Shown here: positions 3,183 to 12,074 of the stretch, in pieces
Layout of the letters: the number at the start of each line of letters is the position of its first letter
Position numbering within the stretch: position 1 is the stretch's first letter
From: a virus
Strand: one strand, 5' to 3'
DNA: 24,206 nt
IMG/VR virus record: IMGVR_UViG_3300020021_000421
Location: 1-24,206 of that record
Notes under the pieces: model-generated
What the model was told of the DNA's origin: nothing
Seen by the model: only the letters and a program-made list of their open reading frames with translations
Databases searched by the model: none
Translations under genes and position numbers: made by a program

Positions 3183-4088
3183 ATGTACGACCAGTGGCTT
3201 CCGGTACCTTACGGCGGACTTGACGGCTCCAGCAGCCGCCTCCGTGAGGGTCCGCGCTTCTGGCGCGACACGCCGCGTTCCGAGCCGAGAGAGATTACGC
3301 CACCCGCGTTCGAACCCCTGAGCCGCGCTGAAGCCAAGCTCCATCTGCGCACGGGCCTCACCGATGAGGACGCGTGGTTCGACCGGACCATACCGGCCGC
3401 GCGCCGGCAGGTCGAGACCGACACCAACCGGACCTTCGTTCAGACCGTTTGGGAGATGACGTTCGACCAGTTCCCGATCGAGCGCTACATCGAGCTCCCG
3501 CGTCCGCCGCTCGTCAGCGTGGCCAGCCTGTCATCGTTCGACCTGCTGACCGGCCTCGAGACGGTCGTCGATCCATCAACGTACTACCTCGACACGTATT
3601 CGCAGCCGGGGCGCGTGATTCTGGTGCCCGGCAAGATCTGGCCGACGGGCGTCCGCTGGCAGCAGGGCGGCAAAGTGCGTTGGACGGCCGGCTACAGCGG
3701 CGTGGCGCAGGCGATCGCGTCCATCACACGCGTCGGCGCCGTCGCGACCGTGACGACCGTCGCGCCGCACGGCTACGCGAGCAATCAGCAGTTGACCGTG
3801 TTCGGCGCCGACCAGGCCGACTACAACGGCACATTTCAGGTGACCGTCACGGGTGCGGCCACGTTCACCTACGCGGTCGCCAACAACCCGGCGACGCCGG
3901 CGACTGGTGTCCTGACCGTCGCCTCACTGGGCGTCCCATCGCGCTACGTGCATGCGATCGCGCTGCTGCTCGGCCACTGGAACTTCCACCGCGAGGCGGT
4001 CACGAGCGGCGCCGCGCGCTACTCGCCGGACCTGTACCCGCTCGGCTATGACGCGTTGATCAGCGATCGGATTGTGGGGCTCGGGTAA
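3183..4088 (+). CDS. gp6-like head-tail connector protein with inserted beta domain
   Basis: A 301-residue protein of the HK97 gp6-like connector family, which forms a ring under the portal. Family signs are LSRAEAKLHLR (residues 46-56), the helical DEDAWFDRTIPAARRQVETDTNRTF region, WEMTFDQFP, IELPRPPLVSVASL, TYYLDTYSQPGRVIL, VRWTAGY (residue 171), then VHAIALLLGHWNFHREAV and a C-terminal LGYDALI. Normally the AGY strand runs straight into the VP...AI.LL..HW helix. Here about 70 extra residues (about 179-247) with PHGY, YNGTF and ATFTY motifs interrupt it, explaining the length (301 against roughly 190-230 usual). The first 45 residues are also extra. The gene leads the neck cluster, and its stop overlaps the next start (TAATG). 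Confidence 0.85.
   Translation: MYDQWLPVPYGGLDGSSSRLREGPRFWRDTPRSEPREITPPAFEPLSRAEAKLHLRTGLTDEDAWFDRTIPAARRQVETDTNRTFVQTVWEMTFDQFPIERYIELPRPPLVSVASLSSFDLLTGLETVVDPSTYYLDTYSQPGRVILVPGKIWPTGVRWQQGGKVRWTAGYSGVAQAIASITRVGAVATVTTVAPHGYASNQQLTVFGADQADYNGTFQVTVTGAATFTYAVANNPATPATGVLTVASLGVPSRYVHAIALLLGHWNFHREAVTSGAARYSPDLYPLGYDALISDRIVGLG
3717..3923 (+). repeat. PHG-type beta domain, copy A (inserted in the gp6-like connector)
   Basis: It encodes about 69 residues beginning ASITRVG and containing VATVTTVAPHGY, GADQADYNG and ATFTYAV. Copy B in the next gene shares SITRVG, VAT, TTV, PHG, YNG, VTV and ATF in the same order, about 30 of 54 positions by eye, with clear DNA similarity too. The layout resembles phage segments that automatic pipelines often name E1-FCCH-like; that link is from memory. 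Confidence 0.8.
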
Positions 4089-4666
4089 TGGGCAGCGGCC
4101 TCTCCGTCGGCGCCCTGCGCGAGCGCGTGGCCATCCTGAATAACGTGTGGCCAGCCATCACCATCAGCAGCATCACGCGCGTGGGCATCGTCGCGACCGC
4201 GACGACGGTGGGGCCACACGGGTTTCTGACAAACGACTACGTCACCATATCGGGCGCCAACCAGGTCGGCTACAACGGCCGCGTCAAGGTGACCGTCATC
4301 GACCCCGCGACGTTCTCGTACACAGTCGACGGTGCGGTCGTGACGCCGGCCACTGGCGCGCCAGCCGCGGTGTACACCAGCGACGCGGAGGGCGGCCGAC
4401 GAGCCAACTGGGTGACGCTCGACACGGTCTGGGCTGAAGTGACTGCGCTCAGCGCTCGCGAGCAGCTGCAGCTGCAGGCCATCGAGGCGAAGGCGATGTA
4501 TCAGGTCCAGATCCGGCGCCGCGTGGACGTCTCGCCGACGATGCGGCTGCTGTGGACGCCGAGCTGGCCGCCGAACAGTCCCGCGCACACACTCGAGATC
4601 GACGCGCCGTTGCCTGATGACGATCTCGCGTACATGAACCTCTCGGCAAGCGAGGTCGTCCAGTAA
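4088..4666 (+). CDS. phage head-closure (head-tail joining) protein with inserted beta domain
   Basis: A 192-residue protein of the siphovirus head-closure family (gp7/gp16-like), the plug below the connector ring. The family N-terminus (LRERVAILN, residues 10-18) and C-terminal part (WVTLDTVWAEVTALSARE, then YQVQIRRRVDVSPTMRLLW, then AYMNLSASEVV) are both present. Between them, residues about 27-97 are a second copy of the SITRVG...PHGF...YNG...ATFSYTV domain seen in the connector. The usual family length is about 105-120 residues, so the insertion accounts for the excess. The start is in a TAATG overlap with the connector and the stop in a TAATG overlap with the tail terminator, implying translational coupling of the neck genes. 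Confidence 0.82.
   Translation: MGSGLSVGALRERVAILNNVWPAITISSITRVGIVATATTVGPHGFLTNDYVTISGANQVGYNGRVKVTVIDPATFSYTVDGAVVTPATGAPAAVYTSDAEGGRRANWVTLDTVWAEVTALSAREQLQLQAIEAKAMYQVQIRRRVDVSPTMRLLWTPSWPPNSPAHTLEIDAPLPDDDLAYMNLSASEVVQ
4166..4378 (+). repeat. PHG-type beta domain, copy B (inserted in the head-closure protein)
   Basis: It encodes about 71 residues: SSITRVGIVATATTVGPHGF, ISGANQVGYNG, VTVIDPATFSYTV and an ATGAPAAVYT end. It is closest to copy A at both protein and DNA level, suggesting a fairly recent local duplication. It sits in the N-terminal part of a protein otherwise of normal family composition. Confidence 0.8.
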
Positions 4667-5115
4667 TGGCCCCGACCTACTCGCCGCTCGGTCCGGTCTC
4701 CGCGTGCTTCTACGGCCTCTTGTCGAGCGACCAGGCGTTGAACACCCTACTCGCCGGCGGCGTGCGGACGGACGTACCGGAATCGCCCCAGTTCGACTTC
4801 CTCTGGATCGAGGTCCTCGAGTCGCAGCAGTTCGGAGGCCTCGGCACTAAGCCAGGCGTCGGGGCCCTGCCGGAGGTCGAGATCCGGCTTCACGTGTTCA
4901 GCGCCTATGCGGGCGCCACGAACGCCCACGCGGCCATCGCGCGCGCGATCGCGCTCGTCTCCGCGACGGATGTGCTCGTGGTCAACGGCTACAAGGTGGC
5001 CGGCCAGGAGCCGTTCCACGACGCCACGTTGCCGCTGCACGACCAGGAATTGAACGGCGTGAAGTGTCGGGAGCTCGTGTCGATGCACCGCCTGTACGTC
5101 GAGGAGCTGCCCTGA
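4666..5115 (+). CDS. DUF3168-type tail terminator (tail completion) protein
   Basis: A 149-residue protein of the DUF3168 type, which caps the head-proximal end of the tail tube and joins it to the neck. Evidence is the N-terminal FYGLLSSDQALNTLLAGGVRTDVPES pattern (helix, then G..v.D.vP), the central FDFLWIEVLES strand, VEIRLHVFSAYAG followed by the helix NAHAAIARAIALV, and the closing strand LVSMHRLYVEE. Length agrees with the family (about 120-150). It starts in a TAATG overlap with the head-closure gene. The gp10-like neck gene usually found just before it is absent here and appears instead at 8133. Confidence 0.8.
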   Translation: MAPTYSPLGPVSACFYGLLSSDQALNTLLAGGVRTDVPESPQFDFLWIEVLESQQFGGLGTKPGVGALPEVEIRLHVFSAYAGATNAHAAIARAIALVSATDVLVVNGYKVAGQEPFHDATLPLHDQELNGVKCRELVSMHRLYVEELP

Positions 5116-5306
5116 TGGCGGACGACGAGCGCCAGCCGGTGATCGTGGATCCGCAAGGGCGCCCGGCGCGCAAGCGGTCCGATCGCGCGTGTCCCCAATG
5201 CGGCGCCGCGGCCAGCAAACGCACGGCGTCGTGCGGATTCGGCGTGGCGCATCCGGTGTGTTCGGTGTGCGGCCATGAATTCTTGGATGAGGTGTGGCGT
5301 GACTGA
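5115..5306 (+). CDS. small zinc-ribbon protein
   Basis: A 63-residue protein whose ATG overlaps the TGA of the tail terminator gene; the upstream in-frame Met is inside that gene. Two Cys pairs, CPQC (26/29) and CSVC (49/52), form a zinc-ribbon pattern, with an extra Cys40 and His46/His54 between and after. The N-terminus is polar and includes a basic PARKRSDRA stretch. It has no further domain. A tail-module zinc ribbon is not a standard siphovirus morphogenesis gene; it may bind nucleic acid or be a small late regulator or structural adaptor. Function is not assignable. Confidence 0.65.
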   Translation: MADDERQPVIVDPQGRPARKRSDRACPQCGAAASKRTASCGFGVAHPVCSVCGHEFLDEVWRD

Positions 5307-5544
5307 GTTGAACGGGAAGGACTTTGTCGCGGTCGTCCGTCTGAGCGACATCGAGGATCGCACGGTCGCCGACGTCGGACAAACCTGCGAGCGCGTGCCC
5401 GCCGGGAAACACGGCGGGACCGTCTCGGATGCGCTGGGAAAGTTGCTCGCGAGCGGACTGATCGCGCCCGCGCCGGCCCGCAGCGCTGCGCCTGCCCAGG
5501 CGACGCCAGTCGCGCCGGCGCCGGTGCAGAAGGACACGGTGTAA
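5299..5544 (+). CDS. small phage protein with Ala/Pro-rich tail, function unknown
   Basis: An 81-residue protein. GTG 5299 is preferred as start because GAGGTG (5289-5294) sits four bases upstream and the overlap with the zinc-ribbon gene is then only 8 bases; an ATG at 5275 is the alternative. The N-terminal half (LNGKDFVAVVRLSDIEDRTVADVGQ) looks like a compact alpha/beta fold, and VPAGKHGGTVSDALGKLLASGLI resembles the boundary-motif style of small phage proteins that precede tail tube genes. The C-terminal 25 residues are Ala/Pro-rich and probably disordered. It stops three bases before the tail-tube start. Confidence 0.55.
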   Translation: MTELNGKDFVAVVRLSDIEDRTVADVGQTCERVPAGKHGGTVSDALGKLLASGLIAPAPARSAAPAQATPVAPAPVQKDTV

Positions 5545-5547
5545 TTG

Positions 5548-6546
5548 ATGGCCGGCAACAAATTCGGCAGCGGCTCGGCACTCTTCTTGGTCGATGGCTA
5601 CGACTTCCTCGCCGCCAAGCTGAAGACGCTCGCGCTAAAGATCACGTCATTGACCGAGCAGACGGACGGCCTCGGGGATCTTTCCGAACTGTTCCTGCCC
5701 GTCGGCAAACAGCGGGCGACCGTCACCCAGACCGGTGCGTTCTTCGATACGACGGCCCTCAACATCCACGATGCGATGGCGACCAAGCTCGGTACGACGC
5801 CGCAGGCGACGCCGCGCATTATGTCGATCGGCATCGTCGGCAACACGATGGGCGCCGTCTGTTATGGCGTCGCCGGCGCGTTCAGCGTGGCGTACGAAGC
5901 GGCGCTCGAGCTGAGCAAGCTGACCAAGGCCAACGCGGAACACCTACTCGCGGGCCTCGTCGAGCGCGGACAGATCATCCAGCCCACGGCCGTCAAGGCG
6001 GCGAGCTGGAACACGAAGACGCTCGGGACGTCAGTGGATTCCACGTTGGATCCGTCGCAAGTGGTCATTCCGATCACCTCGGCCACGAAGGCGAATCCCT
6101 GTGTGGTGACGACGACCGTTCCACATGGATTGACGAGCGGCCAGATCATTCTGCCGTCAGGCAACACCCTCGCCGGTCCGAACATCAACGCCGAGCAGAT
6201 CGTCACCGTCCTCACGCCGACGACGTTCTCGGTCCCGGTCGACACGTCCGCGAGCACCGGTGCGGGCACGGGCGGATCGTTCGTGCGCAGCAGCACCGTC
6301 AACGGCGGCGCGGGCTACCAGCAGATCACGGCGTTCGCTGGCTTCACCGGCTTCATCGGGAAGGTCCGGCACTCCGCGGACGACACGACATACGCGGACC
6401 TGACGGTCTTCGCGAACGTGGCGGCCGGCCCGACCAACGCGCAGCGGATGACGTGCGCGGGGACGGTGAACCGGTACCTCTGCTTCGACGGGGCGGTCAC
6501 GGGCGCGGGAAGCCTGACGCTCTTCTCGATGTTCGCGCGCGGGTAA
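5548..6546 (+). CDS. long tail-tube-like protein with inserted beta domain
   Basis: A 332-residue protein; ATG 5548 is taken over the TTG three bases upstream. The N-terminal about 160 residues form a tail-tube-like core (FLVDGYDFLAAKLKTLALKITSLTEQTDGLGD, LPVGKQRATVTQTGAFFDTTA) that shares PVGKQ...FDTTA...H.AM...TTPQ.A.R with the shorter protein at 6780. The C-terminal part has a separate pattern common in phage tail proteins: GYQQITAF, KVRHSADDTTYADL and TVNRYLCFDG. Between them, residues about 177-246 are a diverged PHG-type domain (TTTVPHGL...TPTTFSVPV), breaking what is usually a GTSVD...NGGAGY link. It may be the main tail-tube subunit with surface domains, or a decorated minor variant. 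Confidence 0.75.
   Translation: MAGNKFGSGSALFLVDGYDFLAAKLKTLALKITSLTEQTDGLGDLSELFLPVGKQRATVTQTGAFFDTTALNIHDAMATKLGTTPQATPRIMSIGIVGNTMGAVCYGVAGAFSVAYEAALELSKLTKANAEHLLAGLVERGQIIQPTAVKAASWNTKTLGTSVDSTLDPSQVVIPITSATKANPCVVTTTVPHGLTSGQIILPSGNTLAGPNINAEQIVTVLTPTTFSVPVDTSASTGAGTGGSFVRSSTVNGGAGYQQITAFAGFTGFIGKVRHSADDTTYADLTVFANVAAGPTNAQRMTCAGTVNRYLCFDGAVTGAGSLTLFSMFARG
6076..6285 (+). repeat. PHG-type beta domain, copy C (inserted in the tail-tube-like protein)
   Basis: It encodes about 70 residues: TSATKANPCVV, TTTVPHGLTSGQ, NINAEQIVTVLTPTTFSVPV and a TGAGTGGSFV end. It keeps the PHG turn and the TTF strand but lacks the YNG motif of copies A and B, so it is an older or independently acquired relative. 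Confidence 0.6.
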
Positions 6547-6779: not shown

Positions 6780-7202
6780 ATGCCTGGAAAGTACGGATCA
6801 GCGAGCGCGGTCATCACGCTCGACGACCACGGCGGCACGCCGCGCATCTTCACCCCGAACGTCCTGACGATCGGCGGCCTCAAGATCACGCAGATAACCG
6901 AGGAGAATTCGCCCTTCGGCATGGCCAACGAGCAGAACACGCCCGTGGGCAAACAGAAGTTCGGCCCCGTCACGATTGCGGGCAACTACGACACGACGGC
7001 GACGACCGGCCCGCATGCGATGTTCTCCACGCTGGAGACCACGCCGCAGGACGCGACGCGGACGCTCGTCATCTCGCCGGACGGGGTGAAGAACCTCACC
7101 GTCGAGGTCTATGCAGTGGAGTACGAGCCCGTGCTGACCAACGGCAAGCTGACCGGCTACAGCGCGACGCTCATGCAGGCCGGCCTGGCGGTCTGGTCGT
7201 AA
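6780..7202 (+). CDS. short tail-tube protein (paralogue of the 5548 gene product)
   Basis: A 140-residue protein with strong upstream AGGGAGAG (6767-6774). It matches the core of the longer upstream protein: LKITQITEEN, NTPVGKQKFGPVTIAGNYDTTATTGPHAMF, TTPQDATRTLVIS and a closing GYSATLMQAGLAV strand. It lacks the extra C-terminal domain and the PHG insertion. Tube subunits of siphoviruses form stacked hexameric rings around the tape measure, and a plain compact core of this size fits that role well. The long 106-base leader before the next gene holds two hairpins. Which of the two paralogues is the abundant tube subunit cannot be told from sequence; the strong ribosome binding site favours this one. 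Confidence 0.7.
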   Translation: MPGKYGSASAVITLDDHGGTPRIFTPNVLTIGGLKITQITEENSPFGMANEQNTPVGKQKFGPVTIAGNYDTTATTGPHAMFSTLETTPQDATRTLVISPDGVKNLTVEVYAVEYEPVLTNGKLTGYSATLMQAGLAVWS

Positions 7203-8510: not shown

Positions 8511-11500
8511 ATGGCGGGATCGACACCGCAGCTCGCGATCCGGATCGCCGCGAACACGGCCGAGCTGAAGGCCAATCTGGCCGAAGGCAAGGCGAGCATC
8601 GAGGCGCTCGGTCCTTCCGTCGCGAAGCTCGCCGCCACCTGGGCGGCGAACAGCAACACGATCATTCAGAACGCTAGGAACATCGTCGCCGCCGTTGATC
8701 AGGTTGGCACAAGCACGATGACCGCCGGGGACGCCGCGCGCGGCCTGAAGACGCTCGAGGCGGCCATGGCGCAGCTGCGCGCCGCCGGCGAACCGATCCC
8801 TCCGCTCATGCAGGCGACGGCCGAACAGCTCCGCGCCGTCGAGAACGCAGCCAATCCAGCGGCGAAGGCCGGCGGCATGGTCGCCAGTGTGTTCGGGCAG
8901 GTCTTCGCAGCGTTCTCTGCGGCGAGCCTCGCCAGCCAGGCTGTCAGCACACTCACGGATCTGGGTCACGCGGCTATCGAGGGTGCGCGGTCGGTTATGC
9001 AGCTCTCGGACAAGACCGGCCTGTCGACCACGACGATTCAGCAGATGCAGTACGTCGCGAAGCAGACCGATTCGGACATGCAGTCCTTCGCCAACGCCGC
9101 CTTCAAGATGGGCGTGAACGTCGCCGACGGCACCGCGAAGGCCCGCAAGGGCGCGGAAGAACTCGGCCTGGATTGGGCGGCCCTGCGTGCCGCATCGCCG
9201 GACGAGCAGTTCAACATGGTTGTGTCAGCGCTCGAGCGGATGGAGGATCCGCAGAAGCGCAACGCCGCCGCGGTGGCGCTGTTCGGGAAGACGGCCAAGG
9301 ACATCATGCCGGCGGTCGTCGCCGGCTATTCGAAGATCGCGGAGGCGGCGACTCTCTCGAGCGACGCCCAACTGAAGGCTGTCGATCGAGCCAGCAAGGC
9401 GTGGGACGCGTTCTACCAGCGACAGGTGACCAACGTCACCTCGTGGCTCGGCAACGCCGTGATCGCCCGCGACACGATCAGCAAGCTGACCGACGAACAG
9501 ATGGCCGCATATCAGGCGCTGCTGCGCGGCGGGGGCGACGCCCAAAAGTTCCTACTGGACATCGCGGCGAGCCTCGCGAAACAGGTCGACATCAAATTGC
9601 CCTCGATGGCGGCGCCAGCCCTGCCGCCCTCATTCGTGCAGGCCCTTGGGGCCGCCAAGGAAGGCTACCGGAATCTCACGACGGAGCAGCGCGCCAACCT
9701 CAATGCCGCCTTCGAGCTCGGGACGAGCAACGAAGCCATCATCAACGACCTCAACATCACCGATGGCGTGCTCTCGATCGCCAAGAAGGCCTACGAGGAT
9801 CACAAGCGGGCGGTTTCTGAAGCGGCCGCTGAGCAGAAGCGGTTCGCCGAGGCGAATGCGAACGCGGCGAGCTCGATGAACGATCTCTCAGGCGAACAAG
9901 TCGAAGCGATCAAGTACTACCTCCAGCAAAAATTCAACATCGACGAAATCTCCAAAATCATGGAGGTCTACAAACACCAGGTCGAGGAGGTCCAACAGAC
10001 CGAGAACCTGCGCACGCTGATGGCGGTGTCGAACTACAAGATTCTCGCTGGCGCGATCAAGTACTACGACGACCTGGTGAAGGCTGAGCACGAGACCGAG
10101 AACGCCGCGTTCCTCGCCGGCGGCAGCGCTATCACTGCGGCGGGCGCGAAGATGTACGACGAGCTCGACAAACAAACGATGACGAGCACGGACTATCAGG
10201 TCACGAAGATCGGAGAGTGGGCCCAAGCGCAGATGGTGGCGTTCAAAGGGACTGCCGATCAGCGGGTCATCTTCGACGCGATCATCAAGGCCTCCGCCGA
10301 CAACCAAGTCAACGATCTCTACATCGATAACAAAGCCCTTCGCGATAACACGGTCGAATCGCTGCAGCAAACAGCCGACAGAGCGTCGAACACCTACCTC
10401 GAGATGGCCGACCATCCAGAAAAGTACAAGGCCAGCACGATCGCGAAGTTCAAGGCCATTTCTGACGCCGCGCGCCGTGAGGCCGATGGGACCGCTGAGG
10501 CGTGGAATCGCGCGTTCACGGTACTGGATGGTGCGTCACAGATCCTCGGCACGATCGGTGGCAAGTTCGGCGAGCTGGGGCAAATCGGCATCACCGCGTT
10601 CGAAGGGATCTCGAAGAGCCTGGCGAAGGGGGACATCTTCGGCGCGGTCGTCGCCGGCGTCACCGGCGCGATTAAAGCGATCAAGGCGCTCTTCGGGGGC
10701 CCGAGCGCCGACGAGCTCGCCGGCCGGAAGGTGGAGGCCACCTTCGAACAGTCCTTCGGCGGATTCGATCAGATGTCGGCCGCGATCGGCGCAGCGTACG
10801 CCGCGACGGGTCGCTCAGCCTCGCAGGCCAATGCGGACATCCTCGCGCTCATGGCGGCCGAGAAACAGGGCGCGGCCGCGACGCAGGCCGCGCTCGACAA
10901 GATCAACGTAGCGTTCGACGATCAGAAACAGAAGATCACCGACACAAAAACGGCGGTCGACGCCGTCGTCAGCGCCTACCAAGGATACAGCGGGAAGATC
11001 CCGGACTCGGTCAAGGCCACGATTAATTCGCTGTTGACGATGAAGGGTCTGACCGACGACGAGAAGACAGCGCTCGAAGGGTTGATGAAGACCGCGGCGC
11101 CTGACTACGCGTCGCTCACGTCGATGGCCGCTGGGTACGGCATCACGCTCGCGGGTCTCGGTCCGAAGTTCCAGCAGGCCAATATCGACTCCAGCGCGAA
11201 GAAGATCTTCGACGACTTCACCGCCCTGACCGATGCGGGCGGAGACGTCGGCGGCATCCTCTTCGGGATGTCCGGATCGATTACGAAGCTCGTCTCGGAC
11301 TCGAAAAACTTCGGCACGGCCATCCCCGACAACATGAAGCCGCTGATTCAGAACCTGATCGATTCCGGCAAGTTGCTAGACGACAACGGCAAGGCGATCA
11401 CGGACATCACCGGGATCAAATTCGAGGCGACGCCGCTCGACACCGGTCTCAAGACGCTGAACGACACGCTCCAGAAACTGATCGATACCCTCACGGGAAA

Positions 11501-12074
11501 GGGCGGACTCGTCGGCGGCCTGAACGACGTAGCGAACGGTCTGAACGGCCTCCCGTCGTCGAAGGTCATCACGATCACGGAGCAGATGAAACGGGATTTC
11601 ACAGATATGGGCGCGAGCACGGACTGGACCCAAGGCGGGATCGGTGACGCGCACCCCATCGCGCGCGGCGGCCTCGTGACGGATCGCGGCGTGCGGTATC
11701 TCGCTGGCGGCGGTCCGGCTCGCGGAAATCTGCTGCGCTTCATGCCGCGCGGAACCGACACCATCCCGGCCATGCTGACGAAGGACGAAGGCGTCGTCAA
11801 CACGACCGGGATGGGCATCCTCGGCGTCGATGGCCTCGCGCGGCTCAATCACGGGCAGGCGCCGGCGTCGGCCACCGGTGGCAGTGCGACGGCGATGTTC
11901 AGTATGTCGTTTGGCGACATCAACGTCAGCGGCGATGCGTCGGGGAGCGACGTCGCCGACGCCGTCGAGCGACGGTTCGACGACGTCATCATCCCCAAGT
12001 TCATGGACAAGCTGCGTCGTGATGGCGGATTCCGCCGCGAGATCGTCGCGCGGCTCGGCGTGAAGGCGGCCTAA
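8511..12074 (+). CDS. tail tape measure protein
   Basis: A 1187-residue protein and the second longest in the window, right after the chaperones, as expected. The N-terminus is Ala-rich and helical (IRIAANTAELKANLAEGKASIEAL) with a hydrophobic segment at about 121-149 (MVASVFGQVFAAFSAASLASQ). The middle has long coiled-coil-like charged stretches, and a second hydrophobic segment lies near 700-730 (GDIFGAVVAGVTGAIKAIKALFGG). The C-terminal motif RGGLVTDRGVRYLAGGGPA followed by PRGTDTIPAMLTKDEGVVN (about 1053-1097) is typical of the end of siphovirus tape measures. At about 0.15 nm per helical residue, the lambda ruler value, it predicts a tail near 175 nm. Its stop overlaps the next start (TAATG). 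Confidence 0.92.
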   Translation: MAGSTPQLAIRIAANTAELKANLAEGKASIEALGPSVAKLAATWAANSNTIIQNARNIVAAVDQVGTSTMTAGDAARGLKTLEAAMAQLRAAGEPIPPLMQATAEQLRAVENAANPAAKAGGMVASVFGQVFAAFSAASLASQAVSTLTDLGHAAIEGARSVMQLSDKTGLSTTTIQQMQYVAKQTDSDMQSFANAAFKMGVNVADGTAKARKGAEELGLDWAALRAASPDEQFNMVVSALERMEDPQKRNAAAVALFGKTAKDIMPAVVAGYSKIAEAATLSSDAQLKAVDRASKAWDAFYQRQVTNVTSWLGNAVIARDTISKLTDEQMAAYQALLRGGGDAQKFLLDIAASLAKQVDIKLPSMAAPALPPSFVQALGAAKEGYRNLTTEQRANLNAAFELGTSNEAIINDLNITDGVLSIAKKAYEDHKRAVSEAAAEQKRFAEANANAASSMNDLSGEQVEAIKYYLQQKFNIDEISKIMEVYKHQVEEVQQTENLRTLMAVSNYKILAGAIKYYDDLVKAEHETENAAFLAGGSAITAAGAKMYDELDKQTMTSTDYQVTKIGEWAQAQMVAFKGTADQRVIFDAIIKASADNQVNDLYIDNKALRDNTVESLQQTADRASNTYLEMADHPEKYKASTIAKFKAISDAARREADGTAEAWNRAFTVLDGASQILGTIGGKFGELGQIGITAFEGISKSLAKGDIFGAVVAGVTGAIKAIKALFGGPSADELAGRKVEATFEQSFGGFDQMSAAIGAAYAATGRSASQANADILALMAAEKQGAAATQAALDKINVAFDDQKQKITDTKTAVDAVVSAYQGYSGKIPDSVKATINSLLTMKGLTDDEKTALEGLMKTAAPDYASLTSMAAGYGITLAGLGPKFQQANIDSSAKKIFDDFTALTDAGGDVGGILFGMSGSITKLVSDSKNFGTAIPDNMKPLIQNLIDSGKLLDDNGKAITDITGIKFEATPLDTGLKTLNDTLQKLIDTLTGKGGLVGGLNDVANGLNGLPSSKVITITEQMKRDFTDMGASTDWTQGGIGDAHPIARGGLVTDRGVRYLAGGGPARGNLLRFMPRGTDTIPAMLTKDEGVVNTTGMGILGVDGLARLNHGQAPASATGGSATAMFSMSFGDINVSGDASGSDVADAVERRFDDVIIPKFMDKLRRDGGFRREIVARLGVKAA

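Follow-up and report, generated by a model that had tools for sequence, protein, structure and literature searches.

Mobile accessory domains are a known feature of phage virions. The Ig-like domains (Big_2, I-set and FN3; Fraser et al. 2006, as cited in later papers) are mobile accessory beta domains, variably present on many structural proteins and attached to them as C-terminal appendages. In lactococcal 936 phages, CBMs occur in both neck and tube (NPS, the MTP extension and evolved Dit) and have been tested by fluorescent fusions (PMC6669499). The tail tube protein gp41 of phage T1 has an additional domain (residues 16-94) that interrupts its tube fold and reaches outside (PMC11945409), and the adaptor ring of R4C carries an accessory Ig-like attachment domain at its periphery (PMC10276861).

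To this known kind of structure, the DNA analyzed here adds barrels of the FCCH type, named for the first catalytic-cysteine half-domain of ubiquitin E1, in three ring proteins. The stretch, which we call the window, is an entire IMG/VR virus record of 24,206 bases with a G+C content of 60-68%, in which late head genes are followed by neck, tube, tape measure and tail-tip genes. Like the Ig-like domains the inserts are mobile and variably present, but they lie inside ring proteins, unlike the C-terminal Ig-like appendages, and their best matches are of FCCH type. As in 936 phages, modules of a binding type are spread over the neck and tube of one virion; however, host binding was measured in those phages and the neck protein there serves solely as a passage structure dedicated to that role, whereas here core connector and stopper rings are the hosts and binding is putative (PMC6669499). 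T1 gp41 is similar in bearing a small inserted beta domain in a tube protein, but it differs in insertion site, in its weak sequence likeness and in its authors' Ig-like label, and copies in connector or stopper are unreported there (PMC11945409). The R4C domain is comparable as an accessory beta domain on an adaptor ring, but it is N-terminal and Ig-like, belongs to an apparently different adaptor fold and contacts the capsid (PMC10276861).

The features are as follows.

3183..4088, + strand: gp6-like head-tail connector, 301 aa, host of insert A (PHROG 442)
3714..3929, + strand: insert A, putative FCCH-like beta domain, connector residues 178-249 (alignments, shuffles, profiles)
4088..4666, + strand: head-closure or stopper protein (Phage_HCP), 192 aa, host of insert B (PF05521, AlphaFold, Foldseek)
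4154..4378, + strand: insert B, FCCH-like beta domain, residues 23-97 (alignment, AlphaFold, Foldseek)
5548..6546, + strand: major tail-tube protein, host of insert C (PHROG 9522, AlphaFold, Foldseek)
6067..6285, + strand: insert C, diverged FCCH-like beta domain, residues 175-247 (profiles, AlphaFold, Foldseek)
6780..7202, + strand: second, shorter tube-type protein without insert (profile likeness, weak PHROG 10528, major tail protein)
8511-12074: tape measure, 1187 residues (PHROG 1272, weak)

A domain profile run over all 24,206 bases found no further copy beyond A, B and C.

Three interrupted ring proteins

The connector matches PHROG 442 over residues 35-179 (E 9e-14) and scores 18.1 bits against Pfam PF05135, below the 21.2 cut-off. 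Aligned with connectors of other phages it is ordinary up to WTAGYSG, continues with about 70 extra residues and resumes family sequence at VPSRYVHAIALLLGHW, so that split matches to the gp6-like core flank the insert on both sides. Insert A is located between the end of the GY strand and the C-terminal helix, and is missing from homologues L004-L008 and from the nearest relative, L097. Among 80 connectors collected by motifs outside the insert, a clear FCCH insert was present in one other lineage only (L011/L218), at the same site. L215 has a weak, distant likeness of the domain there (4.5 bits), and extra segments at or near the site in L223, which carries another insert at site A, and L212 show no FCCH likeness by sequence. 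A search of viral contigs with exact peptides gave no close relatives of the connector. The predicted structure of a viral Gp6 domain protein of 285 aa, A0A6J5SH11, can be superposed to 0.5 A across 76 columns, at an identity of 41%, which suggests that a further connector of this kind is present, unremarked, in databases.

Two observations concern neighboring features in other phages. FCCH-like segments lie near the N-terminus of a gene in the tail-terminator position at L011:3454-4569 (also in L028 and L218). A different insert of about 110 residues with a VTADGET motif follows the first helix of the connectors of L112, L115, L118, L122, L131/L132, L176, L180, L202 and L205; it resembles an FN3-type domain by eye and had no match in a Pfam search.

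The head-closure protein combines a family match (PHROG 25, E 2e-10; PF05521 Phage_HCP, E 7e-11) with a stopper fold, as one half of its AlphaFold model (mean pLDDT 92.4) is matched by Foldseek to the RcGTA stopper 6tba, the phiXa connector 9lbn and SPP1 7z4w. The other half is insert B, which occupies the loop that follows the first beta strand and is predicted to be seven-stranded (24-32, 35-40, 51-57, 64-67, 69-72, 75-79 and 90-98). Twenty non-redundant head-closure proteins have the insert and 22 have none. Its site is nearly always the same, with the domain of L051 located in another loop.

The tube protein, which probably starts at the ATG at 5548, matches the major tail protein family PHROG 9522 in two stretches (E 2e-9) and is predicted to have a tube beta-sandwich, with Foldseek matches to the R4C tail tube 8gtb and a pyocin tube (AlphaFold pLDDT 89.2, pTM 0.85). 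It consists of a tube domain, insert C and a C-terminal beta domain, with C placed in the linker that joins the two. An alignment of 48 tube homologues with and without the insert shows sharp common borders, SVD before it and SS.NGG after it. No prophage matching this alignment was found in genome contigs. The predicted strands of C (175-180, 186-190, 201-205, 221-224, 227-230 and 245-248) follow the same order as those of B.

The tube-type proteins at 5548-6546 and 6780-7202 stand in tandem and are alike by profile, the shorter one resembling the N-terminal domain of the main tube protein; the insert and the C-terminal domain are present in the longer one only. In relatives the C-terminal domain of the tube protein can bear long Ser/Pro/Ala repeat loops (SPSASVSPSAS...), a second, hypervariable tube decoration (L112:4883-6301, L176:8169-9227, L133:5391-6386 and L186:4477-5433).

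A common domain of FCCH type

Inserts A, B and C are homologous beta domains, each some 70 residues long. Between A and B, identity is 50% in protein over 74 columns and 66% in DNA across 66 codons, a likeness covered by a DNA repeat (D1, 70% across 158 bases), and the local alignment of the two (z = 23) was equaled in none of 2000 shuffles. Chance likeness was considered for the more diverged C and rejected: the B-C score was reached by 0 and the A-C score by 1 of 2000 shuffles, a profile from A and B alone recovers C (E 6e-4), as does a family profile built without C (E 6e-6), and the segment in the tube model has the PDB neighbors of B. In one alignment A is 60-64% identical to some copies in proteins of other phages versus 54% to B, and the A-B likeness is therefore no proof of local duplication.

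The predicted fold of B and C is that of the E1 FCCH barrel. The head-closure and tube models each independently match the FCCH-bearing ubiquitin E1s UBA6 and UBA1 with a Foldseek probability of 1.00 (for the tube model against UBA6 7pvn, an rmsd of 1.8 A over 79 columns), these being the top solved neighbors outside phages. A further match of the head-closure model is 2v31, the mouse FCCH domain on its own. Insert A would share this fold, judging by its 50% identity to B. The likeness to Pfam PF16190 (E1_FCCH) extends to a partial sequence match, but the copies fall under its cut-off of 29.5 bits (no match for A, 21.2 bits for B and 13.4 bits for C), have no ubiquitin chemistry and reside in virion ring proteins. 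Ig-family Pfam models (Big_2, I-set and FN3) did not match the inserts, and the head-closure model has E1s with an FCCH domain, endosialidases and stopper and tube proteins as its listed PDB matches; by both sequence and fold matches, the inserts fall outside the Ig family. The T1 tube is one of these matches (E 2.6e-4). The endosialidase matches have high rmsd, as the two domains were searched together, and do not isolate a domain-to-domain equivalence. Fold comparison alone gave matches to solved structures, a domain profile having found no credible one among PDB sequences.

A preliminary description of this DNA had named the three families and proposed that their folds are interrupted, not replaced, by one domain of about 70 residues, close in A and B and diverged in C. 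The matches to PHROG 442, PHROG 25/Phage_HCP and PHROG 9522 bear out the families, the alignments, shuffles and profiles the common domain and its degrees of likeness, and homologues lacking the segments, which align on both flanks of A, B and C, reveal clean insertions into otherwise normal families in all three cases. The E1-FCCH-like label it mentioned is structurally right, and the structure prediction it recommended, performed for the hosts of B and C, gave related folds with common E1 FCCH neighbors.

Distribution and descent of the inserts

To survey the domain we used a pattern search, which gave 80 loci (alignments A1, of the connector, A2 and A4 had too much diversity to be used in this way), and added earlier loci before searching with the domain profile. 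This identified 104 host frames across 94 loci. By family-match tallies, which do not describe a random phage sample, the 70 non-redundant hosts include 19 Baseplate_J wedges, four head-closure, two connector, two major tail and two head-closure Hc3 proteins, besides fibres and other tail proteins; the domain also occurs in nozzles of unrelated phages. Such mobility across unrelated virion proteins is the behavior typical of phage Ig-like domains. PHROG 9998 matches 63 of the 70, and a lambda-like tail-tube protein (L220:6195-6893) has a Pfam-significant E1_FCCH domain (E 3e-12), so that existing families already catch the domain; we found no paper tying it to phage virions in the open literature searched. 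A tblastn search of phage records with a synthetic domain consensus gave almost no matches, probably owing to low-complexity masking. An FCCH-type domain sits in an insertion-tolerant loop of each of the three ring proteins and has been shuffled among the virion proteins of many phages. Connector and stopper rings, usually regarded as conserved core, here accept insertions of a mobile barrel, which is also found on tube, baseplate and fibres.

The inserts B and C come and go independently in relatives. On insert-free trees we counted seven label changes for C in the tube (starred branches force at least two) and two for B in head closure. In a domain tree of 72 copies and 69 columns, in which many forks are open, the tube copies group in a single clade with the L067 connector copy (100/99), and 17 of 21 head-closure copies make up a second clade (98/96). 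Insert A belongs to neither and is placed, unresolved, among copies from other proteins. The AU test does not reject A and B as sisters (p 0.16), and A and B share 26 identical codons versus 18.8 expected (p 0.01), a slight excess; a local copy between B and A is thus possible, though not required by the tree. Very probably, all three are separately acquired FCCH-type inserts. C and B may be old residents of their host families and A a recent, lineage-specific addition, the connector copy being nearly private to the phage of the window.

These data bear on the proposal that copies of the domain in successive rings interact with one another and so lock the neck in a coordinated way or form a common collar. 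In its favor, the window and L067, a 6.2 kb contig with the same gene order, each have the domain in connector, stopper and tube. Against this, B and C tended not to occur together and showed no positive association in a hand-compiled table of 24 loci that are not independent (odds ratio 0.17, Fisher p 0.085), the copies derive from different lineages, and connector copies are rare and differ in site. Independent gain and loss and a near-private connector copy are not what locking predicts. We consider it highly improbable and have set it aside; the rings would do without one another's copies. The shared locking element suggested in the preliminary description is accordingly not borne out, and its "three in a row" holds for the window and L067 but not as a fixed architecture, as the L067 connector copy occupies an N-terminal site. 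The relative nearest by tube core, L097 (72% identical), has B and C and an empty connector.

Possible roles of the inserts

We lean, with modest confidence, toward a reading in which a promiscuous module was separately acquired by permissive loops of ring proteins, faces outward and provides weak multivalent adhesion. By analogy with the T1 and R4C structures, the inserts would project from the rings of connector and stopper and from each ring of the tube, and could bind host-surface or extracellular polymers, mainly through the many tube copies. Taken alone, the adhesion step is plausible, a little short of probable. Glycan binding and surface projection, which we infer here, have good precedent.

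The main competing reading, which we regard as unlikely, is stabilization of the kind described for R4C or YSD1. In this case the connector and stopper inserts would pack on the capsid underside or on neighbors while the tube insert braces within its ring, much as the R4C adaptor domain touches the capsid across a symmetry mismatch, read as stabilizing (PMC10276861), and as domain2 of the YSD1 tube protein inserts and packs against its neighbor (PMC8718954). However, most relatives with the same core proteins do without at least one insert, and connector inserts differ in site and type, unlike a conserved docking interface. The inserts could instead be nearly neutral passengers that recombination between repeated domain copies has spread and that persist because permissive loops tolerate them. 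Presence and absence, site switching and the many unrelated hosts agree with this, as does the finding that some phages keep activity after removal of an Ig-like tube domain (PMC8718954), but the tube and head-closure copies form deep host-specific clades with constant sites and have intact motifs and frame in divergent relatives, which suggests purifying selection. We regard the passenger reading as unlikely, slightly more so than stabilization.

For the adhesion reading, copy number matters. Tape measures span about 1.5 A per residue and a tube ring about 4 nm, and the tape measure of 1187 residues would correspond to roughly 40 tube rings and some 250 copies of C, numbers that favor weak, avidity-based contacts. 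Such contacts have been argued for 936 phages (PMC6669499). The R4C connector is a ring of 12 subunits, while its stopper and each of its tube rings have 6 (PMC10276861); if these numbers are valid here, tube copies dominate. The beta-barrel of endosialidases, parent enzymes that are among the Foldseek matches, is a polysialic-acid binding site (PMC12632334). Counting against adhesion, the conserved PHG and YNG positions look structural, and the R4C authors considered a domain so near the head unlikely to help adsorption (PMC10276861). A broader generalization seems doubtful to us: that FCCH barrels constitute a second, largely unrecognized class of mobile virion module next to the Ig-like domains, placed repeatedly and independently on core rings of neck and tube, where they would read glycans for adhesion, and sometimes copied between neighboring ring genes of one genome. 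What decorations of neck and tube do is directly testable with naturally occurring pairs that have or lack an insert (L097, L067, L098 and others).

Other genes of the window have unusual features. Upstream of the neck, successive genes at 850-1587, 1880-2347 and 2338-2889 encode signal-peptide-like N-termini (for example MRKILVASVTAALVAACLATTAPARAFAQ and MRRSSLFTSLALLVAFVTTLAVRPAAAQ), which is odd for virion genes assembled in the cytoplasm; L067 has one similar gene (475-1077), and other relatives have little that resembles them. Between the tail-terminator and tube genes, a small zinc-ribbon-like frame (CPQC...CSVC) lies at 5064-5306, and L067 has a similar frame.
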